64,000 nucleotides of DNA, taken from NCBI RefSeq assembly GCF_900188175.1, contig NZ_FZOQ01000001.1:186001-250000 (forward strand). The letters are read 5' to 3'. The stretch's first letter is position 1, and every line of letters begins with the position of its first letter. The position numbers and the translations under genes are program-made. The notes beneath the pieces were generated by a model. The model did not search any database and had not been told where the DNA came from. It saw only the letters and a list, made by a program, of their open reading frames with translations. This DNA is from Pontibacter ummariensis. GTDB lineage: Bacteria; Bacteroidota; Bacteroidia; Cytophagales; Hymenobacteraceae. Below, piece after piece: positions 43,291 to 64,000 of the stretch.

Positions 43291-44241
43291 ATGATAAAGC
43301 TTTACTTGTGCGCTCTCTTCGTATTGCTATGGAGCACTTCTACTGTATCGGTGGCGCAACAGATTTCCCGGAACGAGCTCATCTTTCTGACCCCGGAGTG
43401 GAAAGGGGAGCGGTTTGCGGATGGCCGCCCGAAAGTGCCTGACGCTATCATCCAGCGAATGAAGCTGGTGACGCACGAAGAGGCCTGGGCGGTGATGAAA
43501 GGCGAAAACTATAAGTACCAGTATGCCGAGGGTTGGTTGGTGGTGAACCCTGACAGCGTGCTCGTAGGGCGGGCGCTCACGGCCACCTTTATGCCTGGTC
43601 GGCCCGACATCCATCGCGTGATAGACAAAAAAGGCCATGAGAAAGACGGCCGGATCAAATCACAGAATTCCTGGCCCATCGACATGCTGGTGAAGGGGGA
43701 CGTGTACGTGGTAGACCAGTTCGGGGCACATGAAGACGGCCCAACCATTGGGGATAACCTGGCCAACTCTATCTATGCGAAGTCTGGGAACGGTATTGTT
43801 TATGAAGGCGCAGTCCGGGACATAGCCGGGTTAAAAGAGCTTGGCTCCTTCACCTCCTTTGTGAGAAGCTACCATCCGTCGCATCACCTGAATAATCCGG
43901 ACGGAGAGCTTAACACGACCCTGGTCGGCATTAACACCCCCACCCGCATCGGCAAGGTGATGGTAATGCCCGGTGACATCGTGCTAGGGCGCGATGGCGG
44001 GGTCACCTTTATACCTCCCCATTTGGCCGAGAAGGTAGTCAAAACATCCGAAGTCGTCAGACTCAGGGACATGTTCGGCCACCAGCGCCTGCGTGAGCAG
44101 AAATACACGGCTGGCCAGATCGATACCCGTTGGTCGCCTGAGATAGAGAAAGACTTCTCTGCCTGGCTGAACGACCATATTAACGAGCTACCGGTTCCGA
44201 AAGAGCAAATCCAGGAACTGTTAAAAACCCGCACCTGGTAA
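43291..44241 (+). CDS. Exported RraA-like protein 1 (aldolase-type fold)
   Basis: A 316-residue RraA/HMG-CHA-aldolase-fold protein with a Sec signal peptide (~1-22, MIKLYLCALFVLLWSTSTVS). The core has GDVYVVD (136-142), a GDNLANSIYAKSGNG segment and the Arg-Asp pair R176-D177 in EGAVRDIAG, which in 4-hydroxy-4-methyl-2-oxoglutarate aldolases binds substrate and metal. The conserved N-terminal WKGERFADGRPKVPD is shared by all three copies here. A retro-aldol role on 2-keto acids is likely but unproven; RNase E regulation (the RraA name) is very unlikely outside the cytoplasm. The frame begins at a TTG at 43255, but the ATG at 43291 fits the signal peptide. Enolase-family protein 1 starts 21 bp later. 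Confidence 0.9.
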   Translation: MIKLYLCALFVLLWSTSTVSVAQQISRNELIFLTPEWKGERFADGRPKVPDAIIQRMKLVTHEEAWAVMKGENYKYQYAEGWLVVNPDSVLVGRALTATFMPGRPDIHRVIDKKGHEKDGRIKSQNSWPIDMLVKGDVYVVDQFGAHEDGPTIGDNLANSIYAKSGNGIVYEGAVRDIAGLKELGSFTSFVRSYHPSHHLNNPDGELNTTLVGINTPTRIGKVMVMPGDIVLGRDGGVTFIPPHLAEKVVKTSEVVRLRDMFGHQRLREQKYTAGQIDTRWSPEIEKDFSAWLNDHINELPVPKEQIQELLKTRTW

Positions 44242-44262
44242 GGGGCATTGTATCACTAAAAG

Positions 44263-45561
44263 ATGAATAAAAGAAACATGGCAACGAAACAATCCAGACG
44301 TTCATTTCTGGCTAAAAGCAGCATGGCTGGCCTGGCTAGCTTTACGCTGATGTCCTCGTTCGGGCAAGGGTTAGAAACAGCAATTGATAAGGCGCCTCTG
44401 GCGTCAAGCCCCTCAGACCTGAAGATAACAGATATCAGATCGGCCTATATCCGAAACGGGCATAGTCTTTTTGTAAAGATACACACAAACCAGGGAATCT
44501 GGGGCTGTGGCGAAGCCGTGGATGCCACTCCCGGTACCTACCACCTGGTAAAGATGTTTGGGGAGCGCATTAAGGGCAAGAACCCGCTGAACGTGCACCG
44601 CATCTTTGAGGACGTACGGAAGGCAGGCTTTTTTGAAGGAGCACAGGGCGGCATGTACGTCGCGGTGCTGTCAGCGGTTGAAACCGCCTTATGGGACCTG
44701 GCTGGAAAATCCCTGGGGGTGCCCGTGTACCAGTTATTGGGCGGTAAGTTCAGGGACAAAATCAGGGTGTATTGCGACACCGCGGCTTACCGGGAGCGAA
44801 ACCCAACACCAGAGATGTTTGGTGCCGCCGCCAAAGATGTGGTAAACAGAGGGTATACGGCCGTGAAGCTGGATATCGACGAGGCAAGCGATCCTAATAA
44901 ATATGACCACTATAACTGGACCGCTAGTCCAGCAGAACTGGAGCGGATGTATAATCAGATTGCCGCAGTGCGAGAGGCGGTAGGGCCTCATATAGACATC
45001 TGCGTAGACATGCACGGGCGCTACGACGCAACTACCGGGCACCGGGTAGCTAAAATGATGGAGCCGCTTAACCTGATGTTTTTAGAGGAACCTGTTCCTG
45101 CAGAGAACGCAGACGCGCTCAAGCTCATTACCGATTCCACCAGTACCCCAATTTGCGTGGGCGAGAACCTCTACCTGGCACACGGCTTCCGCCGGTTGCT
45201 GGAGATTGGCGCCGCGGATATGATCATGCCGGACATACAAAAGGCTGGTGGGCTAGGGGAGGCGCAAAGAATAGCCAACCTGGCGAACCTGTACTATGTG
45301 CCGTTTTCCCCGCACATGGTGGGCTCTTATTTAGCCGCCATGGCGTCCTGCCATGTTTGTGCCTCGGTGCCAAACTTTGCTATCCTGGAGTGGCAGCTGT
45401 ATTTCCACACAGACCCTATGTTTAAAGAAATTGTAACATTCGACGGTCCTATGACAGTGGACGGGCACATCATGCTCTCCAACAAGCCTGGTATCGGTGT
45501 GGAAATAAACGAGGAGGGGATGAAAAAGTACGCTACGAAAGGCTATCCCTTCTTTGCCTAG
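44263..45561 (+). CDS. Tat-exported enolase-superfamily sugar-acid dehydratase 1
   Basis: A 432-residue member of the mandelate racemase/muconate lactonising enzyme group. The N-terminus has a twin-arginine motif (SRRSFLAKS) followed by a moderately hydrophobic stretch, indicating folded export by Tat. Metal ligands are D249, E275 and E301, with H251 (DMHGR) and H351 (SPHMVGS); the 26-26-50 residue spacing equals that of D-galactonate dehydratase (D183, E209, E235, H285 with H185). This strongly suggests an acid-sugar dehydratase giving a 2-keto-3-deoxy acid. It lies 21 bp after RraA-like 1. Alternative start ATG at 44278. Substrate unknown. Confidence 0.92.
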   Translation: MNKRNMATKQSRRSFLAKSSMAGLASFTLMSSFGQGLETAIDKAPLASSPSDLKITDIRSAYIRNGHSLFVKIHTNQGIWGCGEAVDATPGTYHLVKMFGERIKGKNPLNVHRIFEDVRKAGFFEGAQGGMYVAVLSAVETALWDLAGKSLGVPVYQLLGGKFRDKIRVYCDTAAYRERNPTPEMFGAAAKDVVNRGYTAVKLDIDEASDPNKYDHYNWTASPAELERMYNQIAAVREAVGPHIDICVDMHGRYDATTGHRVAKMMEPLNLMFLEEPVPAENADALKLITDSTSTPICVGENLYLAHGFRRLLEIGAADMIMPDIQKAGGLGEAQRIANLANLYYVPFSPHMVGSYLAAMASCHVCASVPNFAILEWQLYFHTDPMFKEIVTFDGPMTVDGHIMLSNKPGIGVEINEEGMKKYATKGYPFFA

Positions 45562-45862
45562 CTACCTTTCAAAAAAAGCCACCCAAGATCTAATGATATG
45601 TTGAAAGTAGATAGTGGATAGCCTCAGACTGAGGTTTCGTAACAGGGGGTGTAAGTTATCTGCGCGCAGATGTAGTGGTGCTATTTGTAGTAACGATAGC
45701 ACTGCAGGTGTAAAGCCAGGAGCTGACGGCAGGCATCTCACCTGATGGAAAACGGACATCTGCTGTTTGATCTGCAGGCAGGGATGTATAGGTAGGCTGT
45801 GTTCTGCTTATTGTTCAAATTGAATCATGTAAAATAATAAGTACTAAAAGCTTTAGATCCTT
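45562..45862. other. 300-bp gene-free region rich in inverted repeats
   Basis: No gene is seen. Three structures stand close together: CCTCA/TGAGG with a 3-base loop (45622-45634), the 14-bp perfect palindrome ATCTGCGCGCAGAT (45658-45671), and GTGCTAT/ATAGCAC with an 11-base loop (45678-45702). The palindrome is a possible operator for the following gene; the group could also be an RNA leader. The last 60 bases are A/T-rich and probably contain the promoter and ribosome-binding region of enolase-family gene 2. Confidence 0.45.
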
Positions 45863-47362
45863 ATGAAAAGCATCATCAACCAAATTACAGAGAAGTTTAA
45901 AGCAGAGGAAAAAGCAGAGGCAGCTGCTATGCAGGCAGAAATGCAGAACCCCTCTACGGGTGAGGACCGGCGCAACTTTCTTAAGAAGGCAGCCCTGGGC
46001 GGGCTTGCTCTGGGCGGGCTTATGTCTGCCCCTATAGAAGATGTTATGGCCCACACCACCTCCAGGGTTAACCGTAACTCAAAGCCTTCTGAGCTTAAAA
46101 TTACGGATATGCGGGTAGCTGTACTAAACGTGACAGGTCGCCAGCCCGTGATCCGGATTGATACTAACCAGGGCATTTACGGCTTAGGTGACGTCCGCGA
46201 TGGAGGTGACGAGCGCTATGCGCTTATGCTCAAGAGCCGCCTCTTGGGCGAAAACCCCTGTAACGTGGAAATGCTTTGGAAGAAGATCCGGCAGTTTGGC
46301 TATCACGGCCGGCAGGGAGGTGGAGTGTGTGCTGTAGAAATGGCCCTTTGGGACCTGGCAGGTAAGGCTTACGGAGTACCTGCCTGGCAGCTGCTCGGTG
46401 GCAGGTACCGCGATAAAATACGGTTATATGCCGATACGCCGGGAGCTAGGAATCCTGAAGAATTTGCCAAGACCATGGACAAAAGGGTGAAGGACCAAGG
46501 GTTTACCTGGCTAAAAATGGACCTGGGCATACATGTGGTTGCTGAGCAACCAGGTGCAATAGTTAACAGCAAGTTCTGGTCGGGTGAGGATGGAAAGATG
46601 AAGGGGCAATATGACACAAGAGACTACATGAGTTATGGCAGCACCCTGCATCCTTTTACGCAGGTGCAGATTACCGAAAAAGGGCTGGAAGGTCTGGCTG
46701 AGTATGTGGAGCAGGTGCGTAATGCGGTAGGTTATGAAATACCGCTATCATCTGATCACTTCGGACACTTTGATGTAAATAACTCTATTCGCTTTGCCAG
46801 AAAAATGGAGCCTTACCGATTGGCTTGGGTAGAAGATATGGTGCCATGGTTCAACACAGAGCAATGGAAGGTTGTGACGCAGGCTATTGAAACGCCTACC
46901 ATCACAGGGGAGGACATTTTCTCACTGAAAGGGTTCAAGCCACTTATTGATGCACAGGCAGTAGATCTGATCCACCCTGATTTGGGAACCTCCGGTGGTC
47001 TTTTGGAGACAAAAAGAATTGGAGATTATGCCGAAGAGAATGGAATAGCCATGGCGATGCACCAGGCTGGTTCTCCAATCACGTTCATGGCTAACGTGCA
47101 TTGTGCCGCCGCTACCCAGAACTTCCTGTCCTTAGAACACCATTCCGTAGATGATCCGTGGTGGGAAAAACTGGTGAAGCCAACAGGCAAGCAACCGCTG
47201 ATAACCAAAGGTTTTGCAAACGTTCCACTGGATGCTCCGGGCTTGGGTATTGAACTGAATGATGAGGTGATGAAGCAGCACCTACACCCAACTGCGAAGG
47301 GCTATTTTGAGCCTACCCCTGAGTGGAATGAGAAGCGTTCGCACGACAGGCTCTGGAGCTAA
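45863..47362 (+). CDS. Tat-exported enolase-superfamily protein 2
   Basis: A 499-residue enolase-superfamily protein. A charged ~34-residue leader with helical character precedes the twin-arginine motif (DRRNFLKKAALGGLALGG), an unusually long n-region for a Tat signal. Metal ligands are D298, E324 and E350, and the base H400 (AMHQAGSP), again with 26-26-50 spacing. The position two residues after D298 is F300, not His as in protein 1 and galactonate dehydratase; His stand at 299 and 302 instead (SSDHFGHFD). K218-x-D220 marks the second-strand motif. Chemistry may therefore be an epimerisation or a dehydration with a different acid. Closely related to protein 3 at 49525. Its own transcription unit, with a terminator behind it. 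Confidence 0.9.
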   Translation: MKSIINQITEKFKAEEKAEAAAMQAEMQNPSTGEDRRNFLKKAALGGLALGGLMSAPIEDVMAHTTSRVNRNSKPSELKITDMRVAVLNVTGRQPVIRIDTNQGIYGLGDVRDGGDERYALMLKSRLLGENPCNVEMLWKKIRQFGYHGRQGGGVCAVEMALWDLAGKAYGVPAWQLLGGRYRDKIRLYADTPGARNPEEFAKTMDKRVKDQGFTWLKMDLGIHVVAEQPGAIVNSKFWSGEDGKMKGQYDTRDYMSYGSTLHPFTQVQITEKGLEGLAEYVEQVRNAVGYEIPLSSDHFGHFDVNNSIRFARKMEPYRLAWVEDMVPWFNTEQWKVVTQAIETPTITGEDIFSLKGFKPLIDAQAVDLIHPDLGTSGGLLETKRIGDYAEENGIAMAMHQAGSPITFMANVHCAAATQNFLSLEHHSVDDPWWEKLVKPTGKQPLITKGFANVPLDAPGLGIELNDEVMKQHLHPTAKGYFEPTPEWNEKRSHDRLWS

Positions 47363-47373
47363 GCTTACAGGGG

Positions 47374-47527: not shown

Positions 47528-48460
47528 ATGAGGAAGAATGCCCTGTTACTTATTGCCTTCATCTTTTGCGGGCTTGCTGCCCATGCCCAGCGTGTGGGGG
47601 CCTCGCCTGATTATGTTAAAACGCTGACTTCGCAATGGCAAGGAGAGCGGTTCGCGGACGGCAGGCCCAAAGTACCTGACATCGTGCTGGAGCGACTGCA
47701 AAATGCGACGCTGGAGCAGATTTGGGGATACCTGGGGAACAGAGGGTACCGCAACCAGGTGGCCAAAGACTGGGTGATCCTGAATCCGGGGCAAACCATG
47801 GTGGGCCGGGTGGTAACGGCGCAGTTCATGCCTTCCAGGCCGGACCTTGACAGCCTGGTAAGGGCCCAGGGCAAAGCGGAAGGCCGTTCCCAGAAGGGCG
47901 GGATAAACATTTGGCCGATTGACGTCCTGACCCAGGGCGACATTTATGTGGCAGACGGGTACGGCAAGGTGAAAGACGGAACCCTGATCGGCTCGAGCCT
48001 GGGCAACGCCATTTACGGTAAAACAGGCAAAGGTGTGATTTTCTACGGCTCAGTAAGAGACATGCAGGAGCTGAAAGACACCGAGGGCTTCAATGCCTGG
48101 GTGAAAGGGCATGACCCTTCCTACATAAAAGACATGACACCCACCTCCATTAACGCTCCCATCCGCATTGGTGAGGTGACCGTGTTTCCCGGTGACGTCG
48201 TTTTTGCGAATGAGTACGGCGTGGTCTTTATTCCGGCTCACCTGGTGGAGGGGCTTGTGTCTGCCTCTGAAATGACGGCCCTGCGTGATGAGTTTGAGCG
48301 GCTGCTCTTGCAGCAGGGGAAATACCCCTCCGGAGAGATTCACGGCACCTGGTCCGACAAGATCAAGAATGAGTTCAGGGCATGGGTTGGCAAGTATCCC
48401 AAGAAACTGGCCATAACCTCTAAAGACGTGGAAGCTTACCTGGCAAAACAAGATCATTAA
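47528..48460 (+). CDS. Exported RraA-like protein 2
   Basis: A 310-residue RraA-fold protein with a Sec signal peptide ending in AHA-Q (residues 1-20). It shares QGERFADGRPKVPD with the other copies, GDIYVADGYGK at 137-147, and the Arg-Asp pair R177-D178 in YGSVRDMQE. The C-terminal ~60 residues (EIHGTWSDKIKNEFRAWVGK) form an extension beyond the normal RraA core and are conserved in all three. Probably a periplasmic metal-dependent aldolase or decarboxylase acting on a 2-keto acid. 84 bp before RraA-like 3, likely cotranscribed. Confidence 0.9.
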   Translation: MRKNALLLIAFIFCGLAAHAQRVGASPDYVKTLTSQWQGERFADGRPKVPDIVLERLQNATLEQIWGYLGNRGYRNQVAKDWVILNPGQTMVGRVVTAQFMPSRPDLDSLVRAQGKAEGRSQKGGINIWPIDVLTQGDIYVADGYGKVKDGTLIGSSLGNAIYGKTGKGVIFYGSVRDMQELKDTEGFNAWVKGHDPSYIKDMTPTSINAPIRIGEVTVFPGDVVFANEYGVVFIPAHLVEGLVSASEMTALRDEFERLLLQQGKYPSGEIHGTWSDKIKNEFRAWVGKYPKKLAITSKDVEAYLAKQDH

Positions 48461-48544: not shown

Positions 48545-49477
48545 ATGAAATTTAATATTGCAGCACTTTTACCTCTTTTCTTCTGCCTTAGCTACAACAC
48601 TCCTTCGTTTGCGCAGACGATCCCAAAAGAGGAGTTGATCTTCCTCACTTCTGAGTGGAAAGGAGAACGCTTCCCGGACGGGCGCCCTAAAATCCCTGAC
48701 GCGCTACTCGAAAGGGCTAAGAGAATCGGCATCGATGATGCCTGGACAGTCCTGAAGAACGAGGGCTATACCAATCAGTTTGCCGGAGAGTGGAAAATGG
48801 TGAAGGAGGACGTGCCGGTGGTTGGCCGTGCCGTTACCGCCATGTTTTTGCCCAGCCGCCCAGACGTGGAGAAGAATGTCAAGGAGCGTGGGATCACCAA
48901 GCAGGGCCGGAAGGGCAACACAAATGCCTGGCCCATCGAGGTGCTGACGAAAGGGGACGTTTACGTGGCCGATGGCTTTGGAAAGATTGGCGGAGGCACA
49001 CTCATGGGGGCAACCCTGGCAAACTCCATCTACAGCAAGTCGGGCAACGGCGTGGTGTTTAACGGCAGCGCAAGAGACCTGCAGGAAATACAGAATATTG
49101 AAGGTTTTAATGCTTTTGTGCGTGACTTTCACCCTTCTTTCTTAGAGGAAATGGTACTCATGGGGCTTAACACCCCTATCCGGATCGGGAGCGCCATTGT
49201 GCTGCCCGGAGACCTGGTGATTGCGCAAAGAGAGGGAGTCCTTTTTGTGCCGGCGCACCTGGCAGAGCAGGTCGTTGGCACGGCAGAGTTCGTGACGCGG
49301 AAGGACAAGTTCGGCTTTGAGATGGTCAAGTCCGGGCGCTACACCACGGGCCAGATCGACAGCCAGTGGAACGACCAGCTGAAAACTGAATTTCTTGACT
49401 GGCTAGGCAAGCACCCAGAGCTAGGACCCATGACGAGGGCTGAGCTTGACAAGGTCATGAGCAAGAGAACCTGGTAG
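48545..49477 (+). CDS. Exported RraA-like protein 3
   Basis: A 310-residue RraA-fold protein; signal peptide ~1-24 (SFAQ at the cleavage region). The same landmarks are present: WKGERFPDGRPKIPD, GDVYVADGFGK (138-147), and R177-D178 in NGSARDLQE. It ends MSKRTW, nearly the same as RraA-like 1 (KTRTW), so these two are the closer pair. Enolase-family gene 3 starts 47 bp later. Expected to act outside the cytoplasm on the product of that dehydratase; substrate not readable. Confidence 0.9.
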   Translation: MKFNIAALLPLFFCLSYNTPSFAQTIPKEELIFLTSEWKGERFPDGRPKIPDALLERAKRIGIDDAWTVLKNEGYTNQFAGEWKMVKEDVPVVGRAVTAMFLPSRPDVEKNVKERGITKQGRKGNTNAWPIEVLTKGDVYVADGFGKIGGGTLMGATLANSIYSKSGNGVVFNGSARDLQEIQNIEGFNAFVRDFHPSFLEEMVLMGLNTPIRIGSAIVLPGDLVIAQREGVLFVPAHLAEQVVGTAEFVTRKDKFGFEMVKSGRYTTGQIDSQWNDQLKTEFLDWLGKHPELGPMTRAELDKVMSKRTW

Positions 49478-49524
49478 TTAGATTAAAATTTGGCTGTATA
49501 GTTTCATCGTTGAAAAAGAAGATC

Positions 49525-51045
49525 ATGAAGAGTATTCTGCAACAAATCTCTGAGAAGTTCAGAGCACAGGAAAAAGAAGATACCGCTGCTATACAGGCAG
49601 AGATCAGCAATCCGGCAACCAGTAACGACCGGCGAAACTTCCTTAAAAAAACGGCCCTGGGCGGAATAGCCCTGGGTGGCTTTATGGGAATGTCACTGGA
49701 AGACACGCTGGCCCAGACGACATCCAAGGTTAGCAGGGCCTCCAGTCCTGCGGATCTGAAGATAACGGACATGCGCTATGCTGTAGCGTTCATCAAAAAT
49801 GAACCTGCTGCCAAGGGGAGCACCTCCGGGCAGTGTGCCATTATCCGTATCGACACGAACCAGGGTATTTATGGTTTAGGCGAGGTGAGAGACGGCGCAG
49901 ACGTACGCTATGCGCTCATGCTTAAAAGCCGGCTTTTGGGCCAGAACCCCTGCAACGTAGAGCAAATATTTAAGTCTGTTAAGCAGTTTGGAGGGCATGG
50001 GCGTGCTGCCGGAGGTGTCTGTGGGGTGGAAATGGCGCTTTGGGATTTATGCGGGAAAGCCTACGGCGTGCCTGCCTGGCAGCTGCTAGGGGGCAGGTAC
50101 CGGGACAAAGTACGCCTGTACGCCGACACGCCCGAGTCGACAGACGTTTCTGAAATGAAGGAGAAAGTCAGGGTGCGGCTCGAGGACCAGGGCTTTACCT
50201 GGCTCAAGATGGACCTGTCGATCCGGTCTTTGCAGAATATAAAGGGAGCTACTGTAAACACCGGGTTCTGGAATGCAGGAACGGCTTCGCAGTTCAATGA
50301 TCCATCCATTACCTCTTATGCCAATACCCTGCATCCTTTTACCCAGATCCAGATCACTGATAAGGGGTTGGAGCACATGGCGAGCGTGGTGGAGAACGTC
50401 AGGAGCGTTATAGGCTATGAGGTTCCCCTTTCATCAGACCATTACGGGCATTTTGATGTAAACACTTCTATTCGCCTGGGCAGAGCAGTGGAGAAGTATA
50501 GGCTGGCGTGGTTGGAGGATATGGTGCCCTGGTTTTACACAGACCAGTGGATCACAGTTACGCAGGCACTTGAAACGCCTACCATTACCGGCGAGGACAT
50601 TTTCCTGAAAGAGGAGTTCAAGAAGCTGGTCGACAAGCAAGCCGTCGATCTGATCCATCCTGACCTGGCCTCCTCCGGTGGGCTGCTCGAGACCAAAAGG
50701 ATAGGGGACTATGCAGAAGAGGGAGGTGTTGCCATGGCCATGCACTTTGCCGGAACCCCGGTCTCTTTTATGGCTAACGTGCATTGTGCCGCTGCCACTC
50801 AAAATTTCTTGGCCCTGGAGCACCATTCGCCGGATGTGCCTTTCTGGGAGTCTCTGGTAAAAACCACCGATGGCCGAAAGTTATATGAGAAGGGTTTTGC
50901 GAAGGTGCCGGATATGGCTCCCGGCCTTGGCGTGGAGTTAAACGAAGAGGTCTTTAAGCAGCATTTACACCTGGCCGACAGGAGCTATTTCAGGCCTACT
51001 CCGGAGTGGGATGAGAAGCGCTCGCATGACAGACTGTGGAGCTGA
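49525..51045 (+). CDS. Tat-exported enolase-superfamily protein 3
   Basis: A 506-residue close paralogue of protein 2 with the same charged leader (MKSILQQISEKFRAQEK) and twin-arginine motif (DRRNFLKKTALGG). Ligands D305, E331, E357 and base H407 keep 26-26-50 spacing; the residue two after D305 is Y307 and His stand at 306 and 309. Relative to protein 2 it has a 10-residue insertion near 91-103 and another near 245-260, close to the substrate cap, suggesting a different substrate. The frame opens with a TTG at 49510; ATG 49525 matches the paralogue's start. Follows RraA-like 3 by 47 bp. Confidence 0.9.
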   Translation: MKSILQQISEKFRAQEKEDTAAIQAEISNPATSNDRRNFLKKTALGGIALGGFMGMSLEDTLAQTTSKVSRASSPADLKITDMRYAVAFIKNEPAAKGSTSGQCAIIRIDTNQGIYGLGEVRDGADVRYALMLKSRLLGQNPCNVEQIFKSVKQFGGHGRAAGGVCGVEMALWDLCGKAYGVPAWQLLGGRYRDKVRLYADTPESTDVSEMKEKVRVRLEDQGFTWLKMDLSIRSLQNIKGATVNTGFWNAGTASQFNDPSITSYANTLHPFTQIQITDKGLEHMASVVENVRSVIGYEVPLSSDHYGHFDVNTSIRLGRAVEKYRLAWLEDMVPWFYTDQWITVTQALETPTITGEDIFLKEEFKKLVDKQAVDLIHPDLASSGGLLETKRIGDYAEEGGVAMAMHFAGTPVSFMANVHCAAATQNFLALEHHSPDVPFWESLVKTTDGRKLYEKGFAKVPDMAPGLGVELNEEVFKQHLHLADRSYFRPTPEWDEKRSHDRLWS

Positions 51046-52470: not shown

Positions 52471-52899
52471 ATGAAAAATTATATGTTTTATAGTCTCCTG
52501 TTTCTTCTGCTACCCGTAATTGGCGTTGCCCAATCCAAAGATGAAAGTGACGTGGCTGCCTTGGTCGAAAAGTTCAACCGGGCCATGGTAAGTGCCGACA
52601 GAGGGCAGTTGGAAGAGCTGACGGCTGAGGAGCTGAGTTATGGCCATTCCAGCGGAAAGGTGCAGGATAAGGCAGCGTTTGTAGATGACGTGGTAACGGG
52701 GCCTTTCGACTTCCTGACAATAGAGGTAGCGGAACAGTCTATCAGAATGGCAGGGGAAACAGCCATCGTGCGGCATGTGTTTTCATCAAAGGCTACAAAT
52801 AACGGGGCTCTAACAGACATTAGGATCGGGAACGTGCTCGTGTGGCAGAAACAAAAGGGACAGTGGAAATTGATCGCCAGGCAGGCATTTAAGATGTAG
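52471..52899 (+). CDS. Exported DUF4440/NTF2-like small protein
   Basis: A 142-residue protein with a signal peptide (1-20, ending VIGVA-Q). The mature part fits the SnoaL/NTF2-like cone fold of DUF4440: an N-terminal helix (VAALVEKFNRAMVSADRGQLEEL), LSYGHSSGKVQDKAAFVDDV, and a last strand pair (VLVWQKQKGQWKLIARQAF). Such proteins bind small ligands or act as isomerases; no specific catalytic residue is evident. 92 bp after the BASS gene; probably its operon partner. Confidence 0.85.
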   Translation: MKNYMFYSLLFLLLPVIGVAQSKDESDVAALVEKFNRAMVSADRGQLEELTAEELSYGHSSGKVQDKAAFVDDVVTGPFDFLTIEVAEQSIRMAGETAIVRHVFSSKATNNGALTDIRIGNVLVWQKQKGQWKLIARQAFKM

Positions 52900-56424: not shown

Positions 56425-57969
56425 ATGAGAAAAATATATATATCCGCATGCTTGCTGGGGGCCTTTTTCCTGACAAACTGCCACGACGAGTTAGACAAGG
56501 TGAACCCTAACTACCTAACCACCGAGTCCTACTTTAAAACTGTAGAGGAATTAGATAAAGGGGTAGTTGGTATTTATTCTGTTGCCCACTCTAACCTCCT
56601 GGTCGCAAGAGAGTGGTTCTTTACGCACGTGTTGCGAAGCCCCGACTTTGCCACAGGAGGTGCCCAGTTGGAGGCACCCAGAGCCCAGATCCTAAACGGG
56701 GGCACCTCCCCCGATAACTCCGTGGTGGGCTCTATCTGGACGGGGTTCTATACCCTCATCCACAGGGCAAACACTGTGATTCTTAACGGCCCCAACGCCA
56801 GCGGCGATGCTGCCAAAAGAGACCTGATAGTGGCCGAGGCGAAGTTTTTAAGAGCCTGGGCCTACTATGAGCTTGTGAACTTCTTTGGTCCTGTTCCGCT
56901 GTATACAGAGCCGGTAAACACCGTGGACGGCTTTAAGCCGAGGACAGCCGTTGCCGACATTTACAGCCTGATTATGGCGGATCTGAAGGTGGCGCAGGAA
57001 ACTTTGCCAGCCACGCGCGATGGCGCTGAACAAGGCCGGGCTACTTCTGGTGCCGCCACTTTCTTGATGGGAAAGGCTTACATGCAGCAGGGGGACTATG
57101 CAACTGCAAAAGCTGAGTTGGAAAAGCTGCTGGGCAGGTATACCCTCACCGACAACTACCTCGACAACTTTATGGAAGAAACAGAATATAATTCTGAGTC
57201 TATTTGGGAGATAGGTTTTCAAGGCAGGAGTGACAACGGGTATAACTGGGGTAACGGAGACGGACCTACAGCACCACAGGCCTCTGTGCGCAACCAGGAG
57301 ATCAACCCGATTTCGTGGCGTAACCTGATCCCCTCAAACGACTTCCTGAACGAGTTCGAGACACCGGAGAACGGTGCCGCTAAGCGGGATCCGCGTTTAG
57401 ACTATACGGTTTACTTCCCGGGCGACACGTTCAACAACGGCAACAGTGTGCTGACAGAAGCCATGCAGGGGGGAGCCGGCTCGTCTATAATAAACGGGAC
57501 GCCCATTAAAGTTAGCTGGCAGAAATACACCAACCTCTACAAGTCTGACTTAGGGTACCAGCCAGGCGGCATCAACACCAGAATCTTCCGTTTTGCCGAA
57601 GCGCTGTTATTGTTGGCTGAGTGTGAGAACCACTTAGGGAACCAGGAAAAAGCCGTGGAGTACCTGAACATGATCCGCGACCGGGCAGACGTGATGATGC
57701 CGCACTATCCTACTGCCCAGTACCCAACAGGAACCAAAGAGCAGGTGTTTGCGGCTATCATGCACGAAAGCCAGGTAGAGCGTGGCGGTGAAGAAGGACG
57801 CGATATTGACATATTGCGCTGGATAAAAGAAGGAAAAGCTTCGCCTCCGTACACGACCTATACCTTTAACCCTGCCCGGGATTTTGTGCTGCCCATTCCG
57901 CAGGACGAGATAAGCCGGAATCCGCAACTTGGCGCGGGGGGGATCAGCCAGCAAAATCCTAACTATTAA
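56425..57969 (+). CDS. SusD/RagB-family surface lipoprotein
   Basis: A 514-residue lipoprotein (LTNC, C19) with an acidic start (HDELDKVNP). The SusD N-terminal domain (YLTTESYFKTVEELDKGVVGIY) and RagB C-terminal motif (HESQVERGGEEGRDIDILRWIK) are recognisable. It pairs with the SusC gene 51 bp upstream and is closed by a strong hairpin 9 bp after the stop. Confidence 0.95.
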   Translation: MRKIYISACLLGAFFLTNCHDELDKVNPNYLTTESYFKTVEELDKGVVGIYSVAHSNLLVAREWFFTHVLRSPDFATGGAQLEAPRAQILNGGTSPDNSVVGSIWTGFYTLIHRANTVILNGPNASGDAAKRDLIVAEAKFLRAWAYYELVNFFGPVPLYTEPVNTVDGFKPRTAVADIYSLIMADLKVAQETLPATRDGAEQGRATSGAATFLMGKAYMQQGDYATAKAELEKLLGRYTLTDNYLDNFMEETEYNSESIWEIGFQGRSDNGYNWGNGDGPTAPQASVRNQEINPISWRNLIPSNDFLNEFETPENGAAKRDPRLDYTVYFPGDTFNNGNSVLTEAMQGGAGSSIINGTPIKVSWQKYTNLYKSDLGYQPGGINTRIFRFAEALLLLAECENHLGNQEKAVEYLNMIRDRADVMMPHYPTAQYPTGTKEQVFAAIMHESQVERGGEEGRDIDILRWIKEGKASPPYTTYTFNPARDFVLPIPQDEISRNPQLGAGGISQQNPNY

Positions 57970-57978
57970 GTTATAGGC

Positions 57979-58018: not shown

Positions 58019-58231
58019 CAATGTGCTCTGTTCTGTTTATGGTTTTAAATGAATGTAGAGCCGCAGCCAAACCCTGGAAGCTGGCTCTTACGCACTTCCC
58101 AAAAGCATCCTTTAACTAAAACAGAGGCTTCTTCGCTATGTGTTCCTGTGATGCTGTTGCTAAAAACAGGGCAGGTTTAGCGTGTAGCCCTTGGTTTTAG
58201 GGAAAGGCCTTTTTCATGATTGAACTCTTGC

Positions 58232-61200
58232 ATGATGAAAGTAAAGTACCTGTTGTTTTTTTCTCTATCTATCTTCCTGTTGCCTGGCTGTAGCATGCTT
58301 CAGCAAGAAGAGCCCTTGTTTTCTTTGCTGGAGCCGGACACCACTGGTATTGCCTTCTCGAACTCCATCACAGAAACAGACTCTTTTAATGTGCTTACCT
58401 ATGGCTATATCTACAACGGAGGTGGGGTTGCGGTGGGTGACGTTAACAACGATGGCCTGCAGGACCTGTACTTTTCCGGCAACATGGTCTCAAGTAAGCT
58501 GTACCTGAACAAAGGAGACTTCCGGTTTGAAGATGTTACCCTTACGTCCGGAACAGGAACCAGCGTTTGGGCAAATGGGGTGACCATGGTAGACATCAAC
58601 CAGGATGGACTGCTGGACATTTATGTCTGCACCGTGAATCCGGTTCTGGGTCAGCCTCAAACAGCAAATTTGTTGTTTATTAACAAAGGCGTGGGGAAAA
58701 ATGGGCTTCCCACCTTTAGAGAAGAAGCGCAGGCGTATGGCCTGGGGGAAGTGGGATTTAGTACACAGGCCGCTTTTTTTGATTACGATAAGGACGGAGA
58801 CCTGGATGCCTACCTCTTACGCAATGCCCCTGATAAAAATTTAAACCCCAACATCTCACGGCCCAAGATTACCGACGGCACCTCGCCCAGTACCGATAAG
58901 CTGTTCCGGAACAATGGCGACGGGACCTTTTCAGACGTATCGGGTGAAGCAGGGATACTGATCGAAGGCAGGGGGCTTGGGCTGGCCATCAGTGACGTAA
59001 ACCAGGATGGTTGGCCGGACGTGTACGCCTCAAACGACTTTTTAAGCAATGACCTGCTTTGGATAAATAACGGGAATGGCACTTTTACGAACAAAATAGC
59101 CCAGTACCTGAAACACCAGACCTACAACGGGATGGGAACAGATATTGGCGATTATAACAATGACGGGCTACCGGATATCATAGAAGTAGACATGATGCCC
59201 GAGGACAACGCGCGGCAGAAAACGACGATGGAGTCTCCCAATTATGACCGCTTTCGCCTGAACCGCCGCTTAGGGTACGAAGATCAGTATGTGCGCAATA
59301 CCCTGCAGTTAAACAACGGCGACGGCACCTTCAGCGAAGTGGGGCAGCTGGCTGGCGTGTATGCCACCGACTGGAGCTGGAGTGCCCTTTTCGGGGATTA
59401 CGATAACGATGGCTGGCGCGACCTGTTTATTACCAATGGCTATCTGAAAGACATGATTGACCTAGACTATGTGCGCTATAACTCGGAAGCATCTATGTTC
59501 GGTACGGAGGAAGACGTAGAGCAAAAGATACAGGAGGAGTTTAAAAAGTTAAAGAGCATTGTTGTCCCGAACTATATCTACCAGAACCAGAAGGACCTGA
59601 CCTTTAAGAACAAAGCACAGGAGTGGGGCCTGGAAGAGCCGACAACCTCTAACGGCGCGGCTTACGTGGACCTGGACAATGACGGGGACCTGGACCTGGT
59701 CGTAAACAATATCAACAGCCTTGCTTCTGTTTATCAGAACAACGCCGATAAGCTTCTTAAGCAAAATAACTACCTGCAAGTAAAGCTAAAAGGCCAGGCC
59801 CCTAACCGGAGCGGTATTGGCGCTACTATCAGGATTAGAAAAGACGGAGCGCAGCAGTTTTACGAGTATTACCTAACGCGCGGCTTTCAGTCGTCGGTTG
59901 ACCAGACCCTCCATTTTGGGCTAGGGCGGGCAACTGTCGTGGACTCTGTGGAAGTTACCTGGCCAGATGGCAAGTATCAGCTGCTGACCAATATCAGTAG
60001 TAACCAGCTTTTGCAGGTAGACTACAAAAATGCAGTTGAGCAAAAGGCAAGCCCGGCCCCTGGCCCCGGACCCTTGCTGCGGGAGGTAGCCGGGGAGTAT
60101 AACATAGCCTATATGCACGAGGAGGACGATTACGTCGATTTCAAGAACCAGCCCTTGTTGCCTCATAAGCTCTCGCAAAATGGCCCTGGACTGGCTGTAG
60201 GAGATGTGAACGGCGACGGCCTGGACGACTTTTACGTAGGGGCATCCGCCAGGCGCACCGGATCCGTTTTTATACAGAACAGGATGGGGAAGTTCAGCCG
60301 GCAGCCGCTGGGAGAGGAACCGAACAGAGAAGATGACATGGGCGCCCTGTTCTTTGACGCTGACGGGGATGGAGATCAGGACCTCTACATCGCAACAGGT
60401 GGAAACGAGTATGTTGCGGAGTCGGAAAATTACCGGCACCGGCTTTACAAGAATGACGGGAACGGAAACTTTAGGCTCGATGAGCAGGCTTTACCTGCTC
60501 TCGTCTCCAGCAGTTCCTGTGTTGTTGCAGCAGACTACGACCAGGACGGGGACCTGGATTTATTCATCGGGGGCAGAAACACACCCAGAAAATACCCAAT
60601 GCCCGGGCAAAGCGCAATGCTGCGTAACGACGGGGGCACCTTTACCAATGTAACGAAATCGGTTTGCCCTGAGCTGGAGCAGATCGGTATGGTTACCTCG
60701 GCTATCTGGACCGACTTTGATAACGACAGCCAGGCGGATTTAATACTTGTAGGGGAATGGATGCCTATCAGCTTTTTCAGAAATGAGAAAGGAAAGCTGA
60801 CAAACGTTACTTCCTCCATCGGGCTCACGCACACAAATGGCTGGTGGAACAGCATCATTGCAGGCGATTTCGACAATGACGGCGACATGGATTACGTGGC
60901 CGGTAATCTGGGCTTAAACTCACGTTTTAAGGCTTCTGTAGAGGAACCCACCAGTATTTATGCGAAGGACTTTGACAGGGACGGAAACATAGACCCGGTG
61001 ATCGGATACTACCTACATGGGAAAAGCTATCCTGCTGCAGGCCGGGATGCCCTCGTTGATCAGATGGTTTCCATGCGGCGCAGGTTTACAAGCTACGCTG
61101 ACTATGCCAAAGTAACGCTCGAAGAGTTATTCAGCGAAGACGAGTTGAAGGATGCCTATGCAGGCTATAGCTACACGTTTAGCAGCAGCTACTTGGAAAA

Positions 61201-61777
61201 CCTGGGGAACGGGAAGTTCTCTATGATGGCTTTGCCCATGCAAGCGCAGTTTGCCCCAACCTTCGGGATGCTAACCGCAGACATGAATCAGGACAGTAAC
61301 CTCGACCTGGTGCTGGTCGGTAACTCTTACGCTACCGAAACAGGCACGGGGTATTATGACGCCTCTTACGGCACGGTGCTCTTTGGCAATGGCAGGGGGG
61401 GCTTTGTGCCTGCCTCCTGTAAAACAACAGGTTTTTCGGTGGGAGGAGACGCGAAGGGGATCACACGCCTTATGGCAGCAGGAGACAGACTCTTGCTACT
61501 GGTTAGCAGAAATTCGGACCGTCTGAAAGTATTTGAAGAAGTCAGTGCTGTAAGCCACCAGGCAGTGCCCTTGCAGCCTGCCGATGCTTTTGCTGAGCTC
61601 TACTACAAGAGCGGCAAAAAGAGAAGAGAGGAGTTTAACTACGGGGCAGCTTACCTGTCTCAGTCCTCCCGCACGCTTCTTCTCAACCCCAAGACAATAA
61701 AAGAAGCGTTTGTTACCGACTGGCAGGGAAACAGGAGAAAACTACAGCTAGGGCAGGACCTGCTTGTTGTGAGGTAA
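58232..61777 (+). CDS. FG-GAP/VCBS-repeat, ASPIC/UnbV-domain lipoprotein (paralogue E)
   Basis: A 1181-residue lipoprotein (LPGC) colinear with paralogues A, C and D: N-terminal TGIAFSNSITETDSFN and YNGGGVAVGDVNNDGLQD, repeated calcium loops, ASPIC/UnbV near 525-610 (GIGATIRIRKDG, VEVTWPDGK), second block from LLPHKLSQNGPG, ending YGAAYLSQSSR. The frame opens with a TTG at 58220; ATG 58232 or 58235 gives the clean signal peptide. It repeats the arrangement SusC-SusD-FG-GAP seen at 9.7-18.8 kb, which supports a role as an accessory surface protein of the importer. Function otherwise unknown. Confidence 0.93.
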   Translation: MMKVKYLLFFSLSIFLLPGCSMLQQEEPLFSLLEPDTTGIAFSNSITETDSFNVLTYGYIYNGGGVAVGDVNNDGLQDLYFSGNMVSSKLYLNKGDFRFEDVTLTSGTGTSVWANGVTMVDINQDGLLDIYVCTVNPVLGQPQTANLLFINKGVGKNGLPTFREEAQAYGLGEVGFSTQAAFFDYDKDGDLDAYLLRNAPDKNLNPNISRPKITDGTSPSTDKLFRNNGDGTFSDVSGEAGILIEGRGLGLAISDVNQDGWPDVYASNDFLSNDLLWINNGNGTFTNKIAQYLKHQTYNGMGTDIGDYNNDGLPDIIEVDMMPEDNARQKTTMESPNYDRFRLNRRLGYEDQYVRNTLQLNNGDGTFSEVGQLAGVYATDWSWSALFGDYDNDGWRDLFITNGYLKDMIDLDYVRYNSEASMFGTEEDVEQKIQEEFKKLKSIVVPNYIYQNQKDLTFKNKAQEWGLEEPTTSNGAAYVDLDNDGDLDLVVNNINSLASVYQNNADKLLKQNNYLQVKLKGQAPNRSGIGATIRIRKDGAQQFYEYYLTRGFQSSVDQTLHFGLGRATVVDSVEVTWPDGKYQLLTNISSNQLLQVDYKNAVEQKASPAPGPGPLLREVAGEYNIAYMHEEDDYVDFKNQPLLPHKLSQNGPGLAVGDVNGDGLDDFYVGASARRTGSVFIQNRMGKFSRQPLGEEPNREDDMGALFFDADGDGDQDLYIATGGNEYVAESENYRHRLYKNDGNGNFRLDEQALPALVSSSSCVVAADYDQDGDLDLFIGGRNTPRKYPMPGQSAMLRNDGGTFTNVTKSVCPELEQIGMVTSAIWTDFDNDSQADLILVGEWMPISFFRNEKGKLTNVTSSIGLTHTNGWWNSIIAGDFDNDGDMDYVAGNLGLNSRFKASVEEPTSIYAKDFDRDGNIDPVIGYYLHGKSYPAAGRDALVDQMVSMRRRFTSYADYAKVTLEELFSEDELKDAYAGYSYTFSSSYLENLGNGKFSMMALPMQAQFAPTFGMLTADMNQDSNLDLVLVGNSYATETGTGYYDASYGTVLFGNGRGGFVPASCKTTGFSVGGDAKGITRLMAAGDRLLLLVSRNSDRLKVFEEVSAVSHQAVPLQPADAFAELYYKSGKKRREEFNYGAAYLSQSSRTLLLNPKTIKEAFVTDWQGNRRKLQLGQDLLVVR

Positions 61778-61897
61778 CAGGCGAGCTAGTAACGCAGGGG
61801 GCTGTAGGCAGAAACAAAAGGAAGGGCCTTAGAAAAGCCCTTTGCCAGGAGGTATTAGGGGTATTTCGCTCAAGTGATGTTACAAAAAGGTAGTCTC

Positions 61898-63547
61898 ATG
61901 AGAATAAACCAGAACATGTTAATCCTGCTTTCCCTGGCTGTTGTGTTGCCTTTAACTGCTCAACGTCCTGTTGCTAATAGCGTGGTGTCTGACCAGGAGG
62001 CGGTAAGAGCTAAGCTGGCCGCGGTAATTGAGAACTCCATCAAAAGCGAGATGCTCAACAAATGGTACCCGCAGGTAGTGGACAAGCAATATGGAGGCTT
62101 TACCAGTACGTACACCCATGACTGGAAGCCAACGGGCACACAGGATAAAATGATCGTGACGCAGGCCCGCCACATCTGGTCAAATGCCAAGGCAGCTCAG
62201 CTGTACCCGGAGGTGTCGCACTACCTGAGCAGTGCCCGGCATGGTTTTGCCTTTTTACGAGACAAGATGTGGGACAAGCAGCATGGCGGCTTCTACACCT
62301 TGGTTGATCAGCAGGGAAATGTGAGGGCGCAGGCTGGCCGGCATGGCTATGCCGGTGCTGCCAAAACTGCTTACGGGAATGCCTTTGCCATTTATGGCCT
62401 TGCCGCCTATTACCAGGCCTCCGGAGACACAAGCGCCCTGGGCCTTGCCCAAAAAACATTCCGCTGGCTGGAGGAGCACAGCCACGACCCGGTGCACAAA
62501 GGCTATTACCAGGCGCTGGAGGAGAATGGCACACCGATACAGCGAACAGCGCAAATGCCTGCCGACTCAAACGTGGGGTATAAGGACCAGAACAGCTCCA
62601 TCCACTTACTGGAGGCGTTCACAGAGCTGTACCAGGTATGGCCCGATCCCTTGGTGCGGGAACGCCTGCAGGAAATGCTGGTGGTAGTCCGCGATACCAT
62701 CGTGGCGGACAAGGACTATCTAACCCTGTTCCTGACACCGGATTGGCGAGCTGTTTCTTTCCGCGACTCTACAGAAGAGGTAATCCGAAAGAATTACCAC
62801 CTCGACGAAGTGTCCTTTGGGCATGACATCGAAACAGCTTACCTGATGCTGGAGGCGTCCCACGTGCTGGGCCTGGAGGATGACAGCAAAACCATGCAGG
62901 TGGCCAAAAGGATGGCAGACCATACGGTCAGAACGGGTTTTGACAGGACTGTCGGCGGCTTTTATGATGGCGGCTATTATTTCAAGGGTAAAAACGACAT
63001 CACCATTATCAGGGATACCAAGAACTGGTGGGCACAGGCAGAAGGACTCAACACCCTGCTATTGATGGCTGACCACTTCCCGGAGGATGAGTTGCGTTAC
63101 TTCGACCTGTTTCAAAAGCAGTGGGACTACATAGACAAGTACATCATCGACCATGAGCATGGCGACTGGTACCCCGGTGGCCTGGACAAGGAGCCGCAGC
63201 AGAAAACTGCTCTCAAGGCGCAGATATGGAAAGCCTCTTATCACCAGTTCCGGGCACTTGCCAATGTGGTGCAACGCTTAACCCCTGATACAGCTGTACC
63301 CTCTACACCACAGAACCTGAGGGCAAGTACCAACAAAGGCACACTAGTTCTGCAATGGGACAAGGCAACAGACAATAGAAACATGCTGGGTTACAACCTG
63401 TACCTGGACGGTGCGAAAGTCGGCTTCACCCCGCGGACAAACTTCTCTCTCCCTGCCGTTGCCAGACTGAAGGGGAAAAAGCTTACGGTGCGGGCTGTGG
63501 ATTTACAAGGCAATCTGTCTGCTTTCAGCAAGGTGCTCTCCATTTAA
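61898..63547 (+). CDS. Exported AGE-family (cellobiose 2-epimerase-like) enzyme with FN3-like tail
   Basis: A 549-residue enzyme with a signal peptide (1-21, ending LTA-Q), an (alpha/alpha)6 barrel of the N-acylglucosamine 2-epimerase / cellobiose 2-epimerase family, and a C-terminal fibronectin-III-like domain (~467-549; PSTPQNLRA, VLQWDKATDNRNMLGYNLYLDG). Candidate active-site residues are R91, H236, H309 (SFGHDIETAYL), W377 and H449 (SYHQFRALANV), in the order and rough spacing of cellobiose 2-epimerases. Family members are usually cytoplasmic, so export is notable. The frame begins with GTG 61874; ATG 61898 fits the signal peptide. The PQQ dehydrogenase gene starts 80 bp later, suggesting epimerisation and then oxidation of a reducing sugar. 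Exact sugar unknown. Confidence 0.88.
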   Translation: MRINQNMLILLSLAVVLPLTAQRPVANSVVSDQEAVRAKLAAVIENSIKSEMLNKWYPQVVDKQYGGFTSTYTHDWKPTGTQDKMIVTQARHIWSNAKAAQLYPEVSHYLSSARHGFAFLRDKMWDKQHGGFYTLVDQQGNVRAQAGRHGYAGAAKTAYGNAFAIYGLAAYYQASGDTSALGLAQKTFRWLEEHSHDPVHKGYYQALEENGTPIQRTAQMPADSNVGYKDQNSSIHLLEAFTELYQVWPDPLVRERLQEMLVVVRDTIVADKDYLTLFLTPDWRAVSFRDSTEEVIRKNYHLDEVSFGHDIETAYLMLEASHVLGLEDDSKTMQVAKRMADHTVRTGFDRTVGGFYDGGYYFKGKNDITIIRDTKNWWAQAEGLNTLLLMADHFPEDELRYFDLFQKQWDYIDKYIIDHEHGDWYPGGLDKEPQQKTALKAQIWKASYHQFRALANVVQRLTPDTAVPSTPQNLRASTNKGTLVLQWDKATDNRNMLGYNLYLDGAKVGFTPRTNFSLPAVARLKGKKLTVRAVDLQGNLSAFSKVLSI

Positions 63548-63627
63548 GAGCGTCTTAAAAAAACCTTTTTGTTGCCTCCTGGGCTTGCTGCCCAGGGGCT
63601 ATGTCTTCTCCTAATAAGAAACAATTT

Positions 63628-64000
63628 ATGAACCGGACGCTAAAGTATCTTATCGTGTGCCTGTTACTAATAGGGAGTTGTAAATCACTGGAAAAAGAAG
63701 AGGAAACGCACATTCAGGAGCTGGACTGGCCAGCCTATGGAGGCAATACCGCGGGCAACCGCTATTCGCCCTTAACGCAAATTAATAAAGACAACGTACA
63801 GCAGTTACAGGTAGCCTGGACCTACGACACAGGAGAGAACAACAATCCGGAAGAAAGAGGCATCAACATACAGTGCCAGCCTATCATGGCCAACGGCATG
63901 GTGTATGCCACAAGCCCTAAGCTGAAGCTTTTCGCGGTGCGGGCCACCACCGGTGAGGAGGTGTGGAAGTTTGACCCTTTCAAGGACAAGACTGCGAAGT
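63628..64000 (+). CDS. PQQ-dependent sugar dehydrogenase lipoprotein (5' part only)
   Basis: The first 124 codons of a lipoprotein (IGSC) of the quinoprotein glucose/alcohol dehydrogenase family, cut by the window end. After the signal peptide comes DWPAYGGNTAGNRYSPLTQIN and VQQLQVAWTYDTGE, the hallmark first propeller blade of membrane-type PQQ sugar dehydrogenases, then LFAVRATTGEEVWKFDP. ATG 63601 is in frame and is an alternative start. It should oxidise aldoses to lactones outside the cytoplasm and pass electrons to the respiratory chain. The decayed gene at 30366-30912 is a relative. Whether a haem-c domain follows, as in the relic, cannot be seen here. Confidence 0.88.
   Translation, partial: MNRTLKYLIVCLLLIGSCKSLEKEEETHIQELDWPAYGGNTAGNRYSPLTQINKDNVQQLQVAWTYDTGENNNPEERGINIQCQPIMANGMVYATSPKLKLFAVRATTGEEVWKFDPFKDKTAK

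Follow-up and report, generated by a model that had tools for sequence, protein, structure and literature searches.

A probably exported dehydratase-RraA module in Pontibacter ummariensis

The 64,000-nucleotide stretch of the Pontibacter ummariensis genome analyzed here (hereafter the window; the host genome is a 5.97-Mb draft with a completeness of 100) carries a gene cluster whose core, enolase-superfamily proteins with twin-arginine (Tat) signals (ENO1-3) together with RraA-fold proteins with Sec-like signals (RraA1-3), is a real and conserved module, seemingly undescribed in the open-licence literature searched. No description of an exported RraA/enolase pathway was found in open-licence PMC papers, a search that covered neither subscription papers nor preprints. 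The earlier note on this DNA, made from the sequence alone, had placed at least eight signal-bearing enzyme genes amid two SusCD pairs and a BASS symporter gene, and all of them are present as judged by reading of open reading frames (ORFs), Pfam domains and N-termini. The domains comprise PF03737 (RraA-like) in three proteins, MR_MLE N and C in three, SBF (BASS) in one, SusC/SusD in two pairs, GlcNAc_2-epim in the AGE-family protein and the domain of pyrroloquinoline quinone (PQQ) dehydrogenases. The named genes are open ORFs of the + strand, lying at or very near the coordinates of Table 1, and PF03737 is matched exactly three times in the whole genome, each time inside the window.

The neighbourhood of exported RraA and Tat-enolase genes, which the earlier note proposed to look for in other Bacteroidota, was found both among genomes and among loci. 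Relatives of RraA2 were detected in 12 of 198 genomes of a phylum sample (E 1e-15) and in 62 of 291 genomes of an order sample, the own genome counted (E 1e-40); relatives of ENO3 occurred in 54 of the latter 291 (E 1e-110), and 53 of these 54 were also RraA-positive (Fisher P ~2e-47, n = 291, relatedness of the genomes being ignored). The neighbourhoods of the order sample comprised 105 RraA loci from 61 genomes besides the own one (98 new regions and seven fetched before). An enolase-type gene, recognized by BLAST to ENO1-3, lay within 3 kb of RraA in 69 of the 105 loci, against about one expected by chance, an estimate based on the 75 matches to PF13378 that 12 genomes contain; in 55 of the 69 RraA was encoded on the same strand, the median gap being 52 bp. 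The same adjacency was seen in 44/60 loci of named genomes, which are close relatives by design and partly the same genomes, and in 8/15 loci of the phylum sample. The named loci and the order-sample regions have 14 RraA sequences in common, so pooled counts given below refer to distinct proteins, and counts out of 105 to the order sample alone. Within 8 kb of RraA, a BASS or ACS-type major facilitator superfamily (MFS) transporter gene was present in 42 and a SusC gene in 47 of the 105 loci. The order of the genes is kept as well: the genus-mate genome G373 has SusCD-RraA1-ENO1-ENO2-RraA2-RraA3-BASS-DUF4440-SusCD-UnbV-AGE-PQQ dehydrogenase, and genome G328 has the same order without the PQQ dehydrogenase.

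Export signals

The ENO/RraA set is very probably exported. Sec-like N-termini were read in RraA1 (MIKLYLCALFVLLWSTSTVSVAQ), RraA2 (MRKNALLLIAFIFCGLAAHAQ) and RraA3 (MKFNIAALLPLFFCLSYNTPSFAQ), and twin-arginine motifs in ENO1 (SRRSFLAK), ENO2 and ENO3 (DRRNFLKK in both); the N-terminus of the AGE-family protein is hydrophobic and Sec-like, and the PQQ dehydrogenase has a lipobox with Cys27. These signals, to which the earlier note had drawn attention, are kept among relatives: with the final version of our regular-expression and hydrophobicity heuristics, a twin-arginine motif was called in 130 of 134 distinct full-length enolase-type proteins from all loci fetched, and a signal-like N-terminus in 228 of 232 distinct full-length RraA proteins (225 hydrophobic and three twin-arginine). 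A stricter earlier rule yielded 53/70 and 119/131, respectively, its misses being caused by an extra residue before RR, borderline hydrophobicity, wrong ORF starts and truncated ORFs. For smaller families the final rule called 20/21 deacetylases, 8/11 DgaE-like proteins, 10/12 RidA proteins, 9/9 PQQ dehydrogenases, 10/10 SMP-30 proteins, 8/8 UxuA-like proteins and 2/3 AGE-family proteins, where the DgaE and RidA misses start, by eye, with R-R or K-R-R. The rule also called one of two 2-keto-3-deoxygluconate (KDG) kinases hydrophobic, and for this reason only totals are used.

The enolase-superfamily proteins

ENO1-3 possess the metal ligands Asp/Glu/Glu, the catalytic Lys and the Asp-His dyad. 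In alignments of proteins of at least 400 aa and at least 40% identity (window reference counted; 46 and 99 sequences before removal of duplicates), the catalytic Lys, Asp, Glu, Glu, Asp, His and Glu are invariant in 43/43 distinct ENO1-type and 90/90 distinct ENO2/3-type proteins, the single exception being a gap at the final Glu. ENO1 has a His two residues after the first metal Asp, which is absent from ENO2/3; the latter have a His at +1 and mostly at +4. The top NCBIfam scores of all three belong to galactonate, gluconate or mannonate dehydratases, each below its equivalog cut-off, and the solved chains nearest to ENO1 and ENO2, the two searched, are mandelate-racemase-like proteins or putative dehydratases, e.g., 2qq6 and 2poz. 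Dehydration of sugar acids outside the inner membrane appears well supported and rather probable.

The family shows an unusual local expansion in Adhaeribacter aquaticus (L057:11-17833), where one 18-kb run holds three RraA genes and nine enolase-type genes, one of the latter truncated by the edge. Shortened or split copies were met for RraA2 (L078:9022-9956), ENO2 (L018:11054-11713) and RraA1 (L019:9621-10582), pointing to gene decay in some genomes or to errors in their sequences.

The RraA-fold proteins and their possible reaction

All three RraA proteins match the RraA fold in Pfam, and the predicted model of RraA2 (pLDDT 86.9) is matched by Foldseek to RraAS2 (5x15), HMG/CHA aldolase (3noj) and other RraA folds. 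The metal motif of RraA and HMG/CHA aldolases reads D-X20-R-D or G-X20-R-D-X2-E/D. Among 127 RraA proteins of at least 270 aa (window and loci L006-L080), the metal-site Arg is present in 127 and the Asp in 125; 16 fit D-X20-R-D, 101 have a small residue (Gly/Ser/Ala) followed by X20-R-D-X2-E, and 10 have neither, i.e., 117 of 127 fit. According to the available part of PMC5065237, most homologues retain one of two metal motifs and are likely class II pyruvate aldolases. The NCBIfam matches of RraA1 and RraA2, the two scanned, lie below cut-off. A role of RraA1-3 as regulators of RNase E was considered and rejected in view of their Sec-like signals, longer N-termini and enolase partners.

No DHDPS-, HpcH- or KDPG-type (2-keto-3-deoxy-6-phosphogluconate) aldolase domain was found by Pfam among the 13 genes of 43291-64000, so that, of these genes, only the RraA proteins could fill the role of a KDG aldolase. 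Searches of plasmids for further RraA relatives gave no match. Candidatus Limiplasma (Bacillota; L080:4167-14519) encodes an apparent cytosolic counterpart of the module: its RraA lacks a signal and precedes an SDR-like protein, DhaK, an aldo-keto reductase and DhaL, and close by, on the other strand, are an enolase-type gene, likewise without signal, and an ABC sugar importer-like set. The DhaK/DhaL triose kinase beside RraA fits the release of a triose. Glyceraldehyde-3-phosphate-reductase-like genes lie near RraA in L007, L009, L055 and L170; they are a weaker argument for cleavage, because RraA copies of L007, L170 and L055 carry Asn for the metal-site Asp. This R-N in place of R-D marks a subgroup of exported RraA proteins (L007:9251-10195, L170:9421-10365, L174:9660-10610 and L055:8756-9706). 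Altogether, retro-aldol cleavage of 2-keto-3-deoxy acids by RraA is plausible, and we hold it to be evenly poised.

Interchangeable acid producers and substrate hints

The enolase-type enzyme is not the sole kind of partner of RraA. UxuA-like mannonate dehydratases with Tat signals stand beside RraA in L011, L056, L059 and L069 (the NCBIfam subfamily cut-off is passed by the L056 protein and not by that of L011). An amidohydrolase/deacetylase with a Sec-like signal and a DgaE-like pyridoxal-phosphate ammonia-lyase occur with RraA and BASS in L009, L012, L015, L077 and L159, and a RidA-family protein accompanies them in L012, L015, L077 and L159; none was seen near L009. The richest setting is that of L011, with SusCD, two UxuA-like genes, RraA, two ENO genes, BASS, a PQQ dehydrogenase, an exported-looking SMP-30 lactonase and a KDG-kinase-like gene. 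The enolase, UxuA-like and DgaE-like chemistries are all expected to yield 2-keto-3-deoxy acids, and it is above all their convergence beside RraA that argues for RraA and the transporter acting on these acids or products thereof. Duplicated deacetylase/DgaE/RidA sets (L159:7327-18802) and duplicated deacetylase genes (L176, L179), all beside RraA and BASS, were also observed; such duplicated sets possibly constitute an external route for amino-sugar acids.

Substrates are predicted from family roles. Ferruginibacter paludis (L050) encodes, in one direction, L-rhamnose isomerase-like, FGGY kinase-like and Lut-like proteins, ENO3, RraA2, RraA3 and an ACS-type MFS transporter; the models concerned do not reach their equivalog cut-offs. 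RraA1 and ENO1 stand with an ACS-type transporter in L094 and in L100, and the two loci together add GH67, GH115, GH43, UxuA and UxaC (the last by BLAST), which is a glucuronoxylan context. Such differing surroundings indicate that the module is likely generic, its substrate being set by neighbouring genes.

Transport

The BASS protein scores below the PanS equivalog and TIGR00841 cut-offs. Its closest solved chain is 3zux, which we take to be ASBT_NM. As stated in the available part of PMC10645422, ASBT_NM binds pantoate and not ketopantoate, and plant BASS proteins transport pyruvate, glycolate and 2-keto acids. ACS-type MFS genes lie by RraA in seven named loci (Segetibacter, Ferruginibacter and others), the best model, where scanned, being a D-galactonate transporter below its cut-off. 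Both transporter types fit a small carboxylate cargo; that the BASS protein would carry pyruvate rather than an intact 2-keto-3-deoxy acid might, in our estimation, go either way.

Optional partners and cytosolic branches

AGE and PQQ dehydrogenase, tried as parts of the core, were rejected as such and are optional, occasional partners: within 8 kb of RraA, AGE occurs in 0/105 and PQQ dehydrogenase in 4/105 loci. The full-length PQQ dehydrogenase, read from the flanking sequence, comprises 737 aa, a cytochrome-c stretch included. The next gene (L004:4053-7442) encodes an exported-looking 1129-aa protein with ThuA, GSDH, PKD, cytochrome c and CBM6 domains, relatives of which adjoin AGE in G328 and lie upstream of the FAH gene in G373.

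Upstream of an ECF (extracytoplasmic function) sigma factor gene, the trio 31443-35769 encodes a FAH-fold protein, an aldehyde dehydrogenase and an IlvD/EDD protein, all without signals; it lies outside the coordinates of the earlier note, which does not mention it. The first is nearest to 2-keto-3-deoxy-D-arabinonate dehydratase 2q18 (E 1.4e-54), the IlvD/EDD protein reaches 862 bits against a cut-off of 882 for L-arabinonate dehydratase, and the aldehyde dehydrogenase is far below cut-off. By homology, the trio looks able to handle pentonates as a parallel cytosolic route of the Weimberg type. FAH and IlvD genes adjoin a gene for a GntP-family gluconate transporter in G373, with no aldehyde dehydrogenase match there, and the trio had no match within the stretch read in G328. 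The position beside the GntP transporter points to a separate branch in which the acid is taken up whole, and the view of the trio as completing the exported path was dropped on this ground and for its lack of signals.

The proposed pathway and its alternatives

We propose that a sugar or its acid likely passes the outer membrane by way of the SusCD pairs, with ECF sigma/FecR as the likely regulators, and that in the periplasm the enolase-type enzymes would remove water from aldonic acids, yielding 2-keto-3-deoxy acids. Cleavage of these to pyruvate and a short aldehyde would likely fall to the RraA partners, and the BASS protein would likely import the resulting keto acid. In the host genome, the exported AGE epimerase and PQQ dehydrogenase, both optional, might supply further aldonates, and the signal-less IlvD/EDD protein, FAH-type dehydratase and aldehyde dehydrogenase upstream would treat pentonates imported whole. 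Taken as one explanation, Tat-ENO dehydration, RraA cleavage and BASS uptake with SusCD supply form a tentative scheme, close to balanced and leaning slightly towards doubt.

Several observations weigh against this scheme. Whereas RraA1 fits D-X20-R-D, RraA2 and RraA3 have Ser and Ala, respectively, for the Gly of the second form of the motif, with the rest kept. The metal-site Asn is carried by the only RraA of L007 and of L170 and by one of three in L055, and a UxuA-type gene of the cytosolic kind lies near nine of the 105 loci; both facts lower our estimate for cleavage. In 22/105 loci, some of them on short contigs, no exported dehydratase, BASS/ACS transporter or deacetylase is found nearby. 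The sole characterized RraA-family enzyme of Bacteroidota that we found, FlDet of Flavobacterium UMI-01, is a 2-keto-3-deoxy-D-glucarate dehydratase/decarboxylase, inactive on KDG and KDPG, with no signal in its sequenced N-terminus, according to the available part of PMC8563752. KDG-kinase-like genes stand inside the clusters of L011 and L054, and in L162 FAH/aldehyde dehydrogenase genes come right after RraA1-ENO1; these arrangements point to 2-keto-3-deoxy acids being taken up intact. The own genome has a hexuronate cluster with a KDG-kinase-like gene (56% to the L054 protein), KDPG aldolase, UxaC and a KduI-type gene, so that intact KDG would be usable if imported. The rarity of AGE and PQQ dehydrogenase counts against them as constant partners. 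As for the cofactor, PqqE gave only weak matches in the whole genome, none over the cut-off, as it did in all 14 control genomes, which leaves the search without a positive control; given the PQQ-type dehydrogenases of the locus, the PQQ may come from an external source.

In one alternative, dehydration would likewise be exported and RraA would instead be a dehydratase, decarboxylase, epimerase or similar enzyme, an intact C5/C6 keto acid being imported by BASS or MFS and finished inside by KDG kinase/KDPG aldolase or FAH/aldehyde dehydrogenase. FlDet provides the precedent, the KDG-kinase-like genes of L011 and L054 lie beside BASS, a FAH gene is near the cluster in L142 besides the FAH and aldehyde dehydrogenase genes of L162, and the own genome has both KDG-kinase-like and KDPG aldolase genes. 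However, KdgK, KDPG aldolase, FAH, aldehyde dehydrogenase or IlvD genes are near just 2/105 loci of the order sample, the operon around the signal-less L080 RraA includes a triose kinase and an aldo-keto reductase, and FlDet, among the substrates tested in PMC8563752, was active on the diacid only. We regard this alternative as possible, if somewhat doubtful. A role of the exported proteins other than sugar-acid catabolism, e.g., racemization or lactonization by the enolase-superfamily proteins or non-enzymatic functions of RraA, agrees with the sub-cut-off NCBIfam matches of ENO1-3, RraA1 and RraA2 and with the difficulty of reading enolase-superfamily function from sequence (PMC4511580, in the part available). 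It is nevertheless improbable, as UxuA-type or DgaE-type enzymes replace the enolase beside related RraA proteins, and lactonase, PQQ dehydrogenase, ACS/BASS transporter and L-rhamnose or glucuronoxylan genes surround the module. Finally, the genes might be unlinked and share a large Sus-type locus, the joined pathway being an artefact of reading order; that other genomes seldom have AGE or PQQ dehydrogenase close to RraA would agree with it. The genome co-occurrence (53/54), the adjacency (69/105 against about one expected) and the gene order kept in G373 and, minus PQQ dehydrogenase, in G328 strongly disfavour this reading for the core, and it seems highly improbable.

The earlier note had joined these enzymes into an Entner-Doudoroff-like chain lying entirely outside the cytoplasm. 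Of this chain, external dehydration is well supported by the conserved signals, residues and clustering, and RraA cleavage and keto-acid uptake, its last two steps, are possible; the initial epimerization and oxidation are not constant parts of it. The signal-less trio and the KDG-kinase-like genes at two loci indicate that some of this chemistry is also cytosolic. A still broader form of the exported dehydration-cleavage-uptake scheme, in our opinion unlikely, would be a complete phosphate-free Entner-Doudoroff-type pathway outside the inner membrane in many Bacteroidota: sugars would be epimerized and oxidized, several interchangeable Tat dehydratases would turn aldonates, mannonates and amino-sugar acids into 2-keto-3-deoxy acids, a dedicated Sec-exported RraA pair, perhaps a heteromer, would cleave the latter to pyruvate and an aldehyde, and a sodium symporter would import the pyruvate, with no ATP-dependent sugar uptake or kinase involved.

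Gene content of the locus

The principal + strand genes, beginning with FecR at 36774 and running past the end of the window, follow one another in the order of Table 1, up to the ThuA/GSDH/PKD/cytochrome c/CBM6 protein. A DUF4440 protein of the kind encoded here recurs within 8 kb of RraA/BASS in 9/105 loci of the order sample.

Table 1. Genes of the exported module and of its surroundings in the window
Feature	Position	Strand	Remarks
FAH-fold protein	31443..32279	+	2-keto-3-deoxy-D-arabinonate dehydratase-like; without signal
Aldehyde dehydrogenase	32293..33900	+	best model 2,5-dioxovalerate (KGSA) dehydrogenase, far below cut-off; without signal
IlvD/EDD sugar-acid dehydratase	34048..35769	+	L-arabinonate dehydratase-like; without signal
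ECF sigma factor	36046..36636	-	probable regulator with FecR
FecR anti-sigma factor	36774..37853	+	
SusC1	37965..41462	+	outer-membrane importer with STN domain
SusD1	41484..43058	+	
RraA1	43291..44241	+	Sec-like signal; RraA/HMG-CHA aldolase family; D-X20-R-D type metal site
ENO1	44263..45561	+	Tat signal; acid-sugar-dehydratase-like enolase-superfamily protein; catalytic positions present
ENO2	45863..47362	+	Tat signal; enolase-superfamily, dehydratase-like
RraA2	47528..48460	+	Sec-like signal; S-X20-R-D-X2-E; predicted structure of RraA/HMG-CHA aldolase fold
RraA3	48545..49477	+	Sec-like signal; A-X20-R-D-X2-E; often neighbours RraA2
ENO3	49525..51045	+	Tat signal; enolase-superfamily, dehydratase-like; ORF opens at 49510
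BASS-family symporter	51248..52378	+	PanS/ASBT_NM-like; likely importer of a small keto acid
DUF4440/SnoaL-like protein	52471..52899	+	hydrophobic N-terminus; recurrent BASS partner
SusC2	53194..56373	+	
SusD2	56425..57969	+	
FG-GAP/ASPIC-UnbV protein	58220..61777	+	lipoprotein-like by eye
AGE-family protein	61874..63547	+	cellobiose 2-epimerase-like; Sec-like N-terminus; C-terminal FN3-like region
PQQ-dependent sugar dehydrogenase	63601..64000	+	lipoprotein; start only in window, runs on to L004:3814

Relation to known systems and significance

In the non-phosphorylative Entner-Doudoroff pathway, a sugar is converted to an aldonate, a 2-keto-3-deoxyaldonate and then pyruvate and an aldehyde, the lyases known there being DHDPS- or HpcH-type aldolases. 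The suggested order of dehydrogenase, lactonase, aldonate dehydratase and putative 2-keto-3-deoxy-acid lyase is alike; unlike in that pathway, the enzymes of the module bear export signals, the lyase would be RraA-fold and the dehydrogenase is optional. Periplasmic PQQ-dependent oxidation, such as that of quinate by Acinetobacter (QuiA) or the direct glucose oxidation of Gluconobacter and Pseudomonas, ends at an oxidized or, for quinate, dehydrated ring product; external oxidation of a polyol or sugar with uptake of the acid is common to both, whereas in the module sugar-acid dehydration and perhaps C-C cleavage would also be external. The Weimberg pathway consists of a pentonate dehydratase, a 2-keto-3-deoxypentonate dehydratase and a KGSA dehydrogenase, and each of these enzyme types has, by homology, a counterpart in the trio 31443-35769; lacking export signals, in contrast to the module, the trio seems a separate parallel branch.

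Periplasmic sugar metabolism has been proposed for Bacteroidetes and others in the form of an exported 3-keto-glycoside pathway with a LacABC-type dehydrogenase and a DUF1080 hydrolase (PMC9007349); this pathway, as presented in the available part of the source, has other enzymes and intermediates and no acid dehydration. FlDet resembles the RraA proteins of the window as a Bacteroidota member of the family acting on a 2-keto-3-deoxy sugar acid, and differs in its length (237 against 310 aa), signal-less sequenced N-terminus and restriction, among substrates tested, to the diacid, no enolase partner being described in the available part of PMC8563752. The enolase-superfamily sugar-acid pathways of SAR202 involve COG3836 and COG0329 aldolases, and the available text of PMC10444878 mentions no export and does not contain the word 'periplasm'.

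If the proposed scheme is true, a central sugar-acid route, normally cytosolic, would be relocated outside the inner membrane by a compact module. It would also give a function to a large exported family whose members are at present annotated as 'regulator of RNase E activity RraA', 'putative 4-hydroxy-4-methyl-2-oxoglutarate aldolase' or 'dimethylmenaquinone methyltransferase', and would predict for soil and aquatic Bacteroidota a strategy of carbon and energy acquisition relying on no kinase and on the uptake of a small keto acid.

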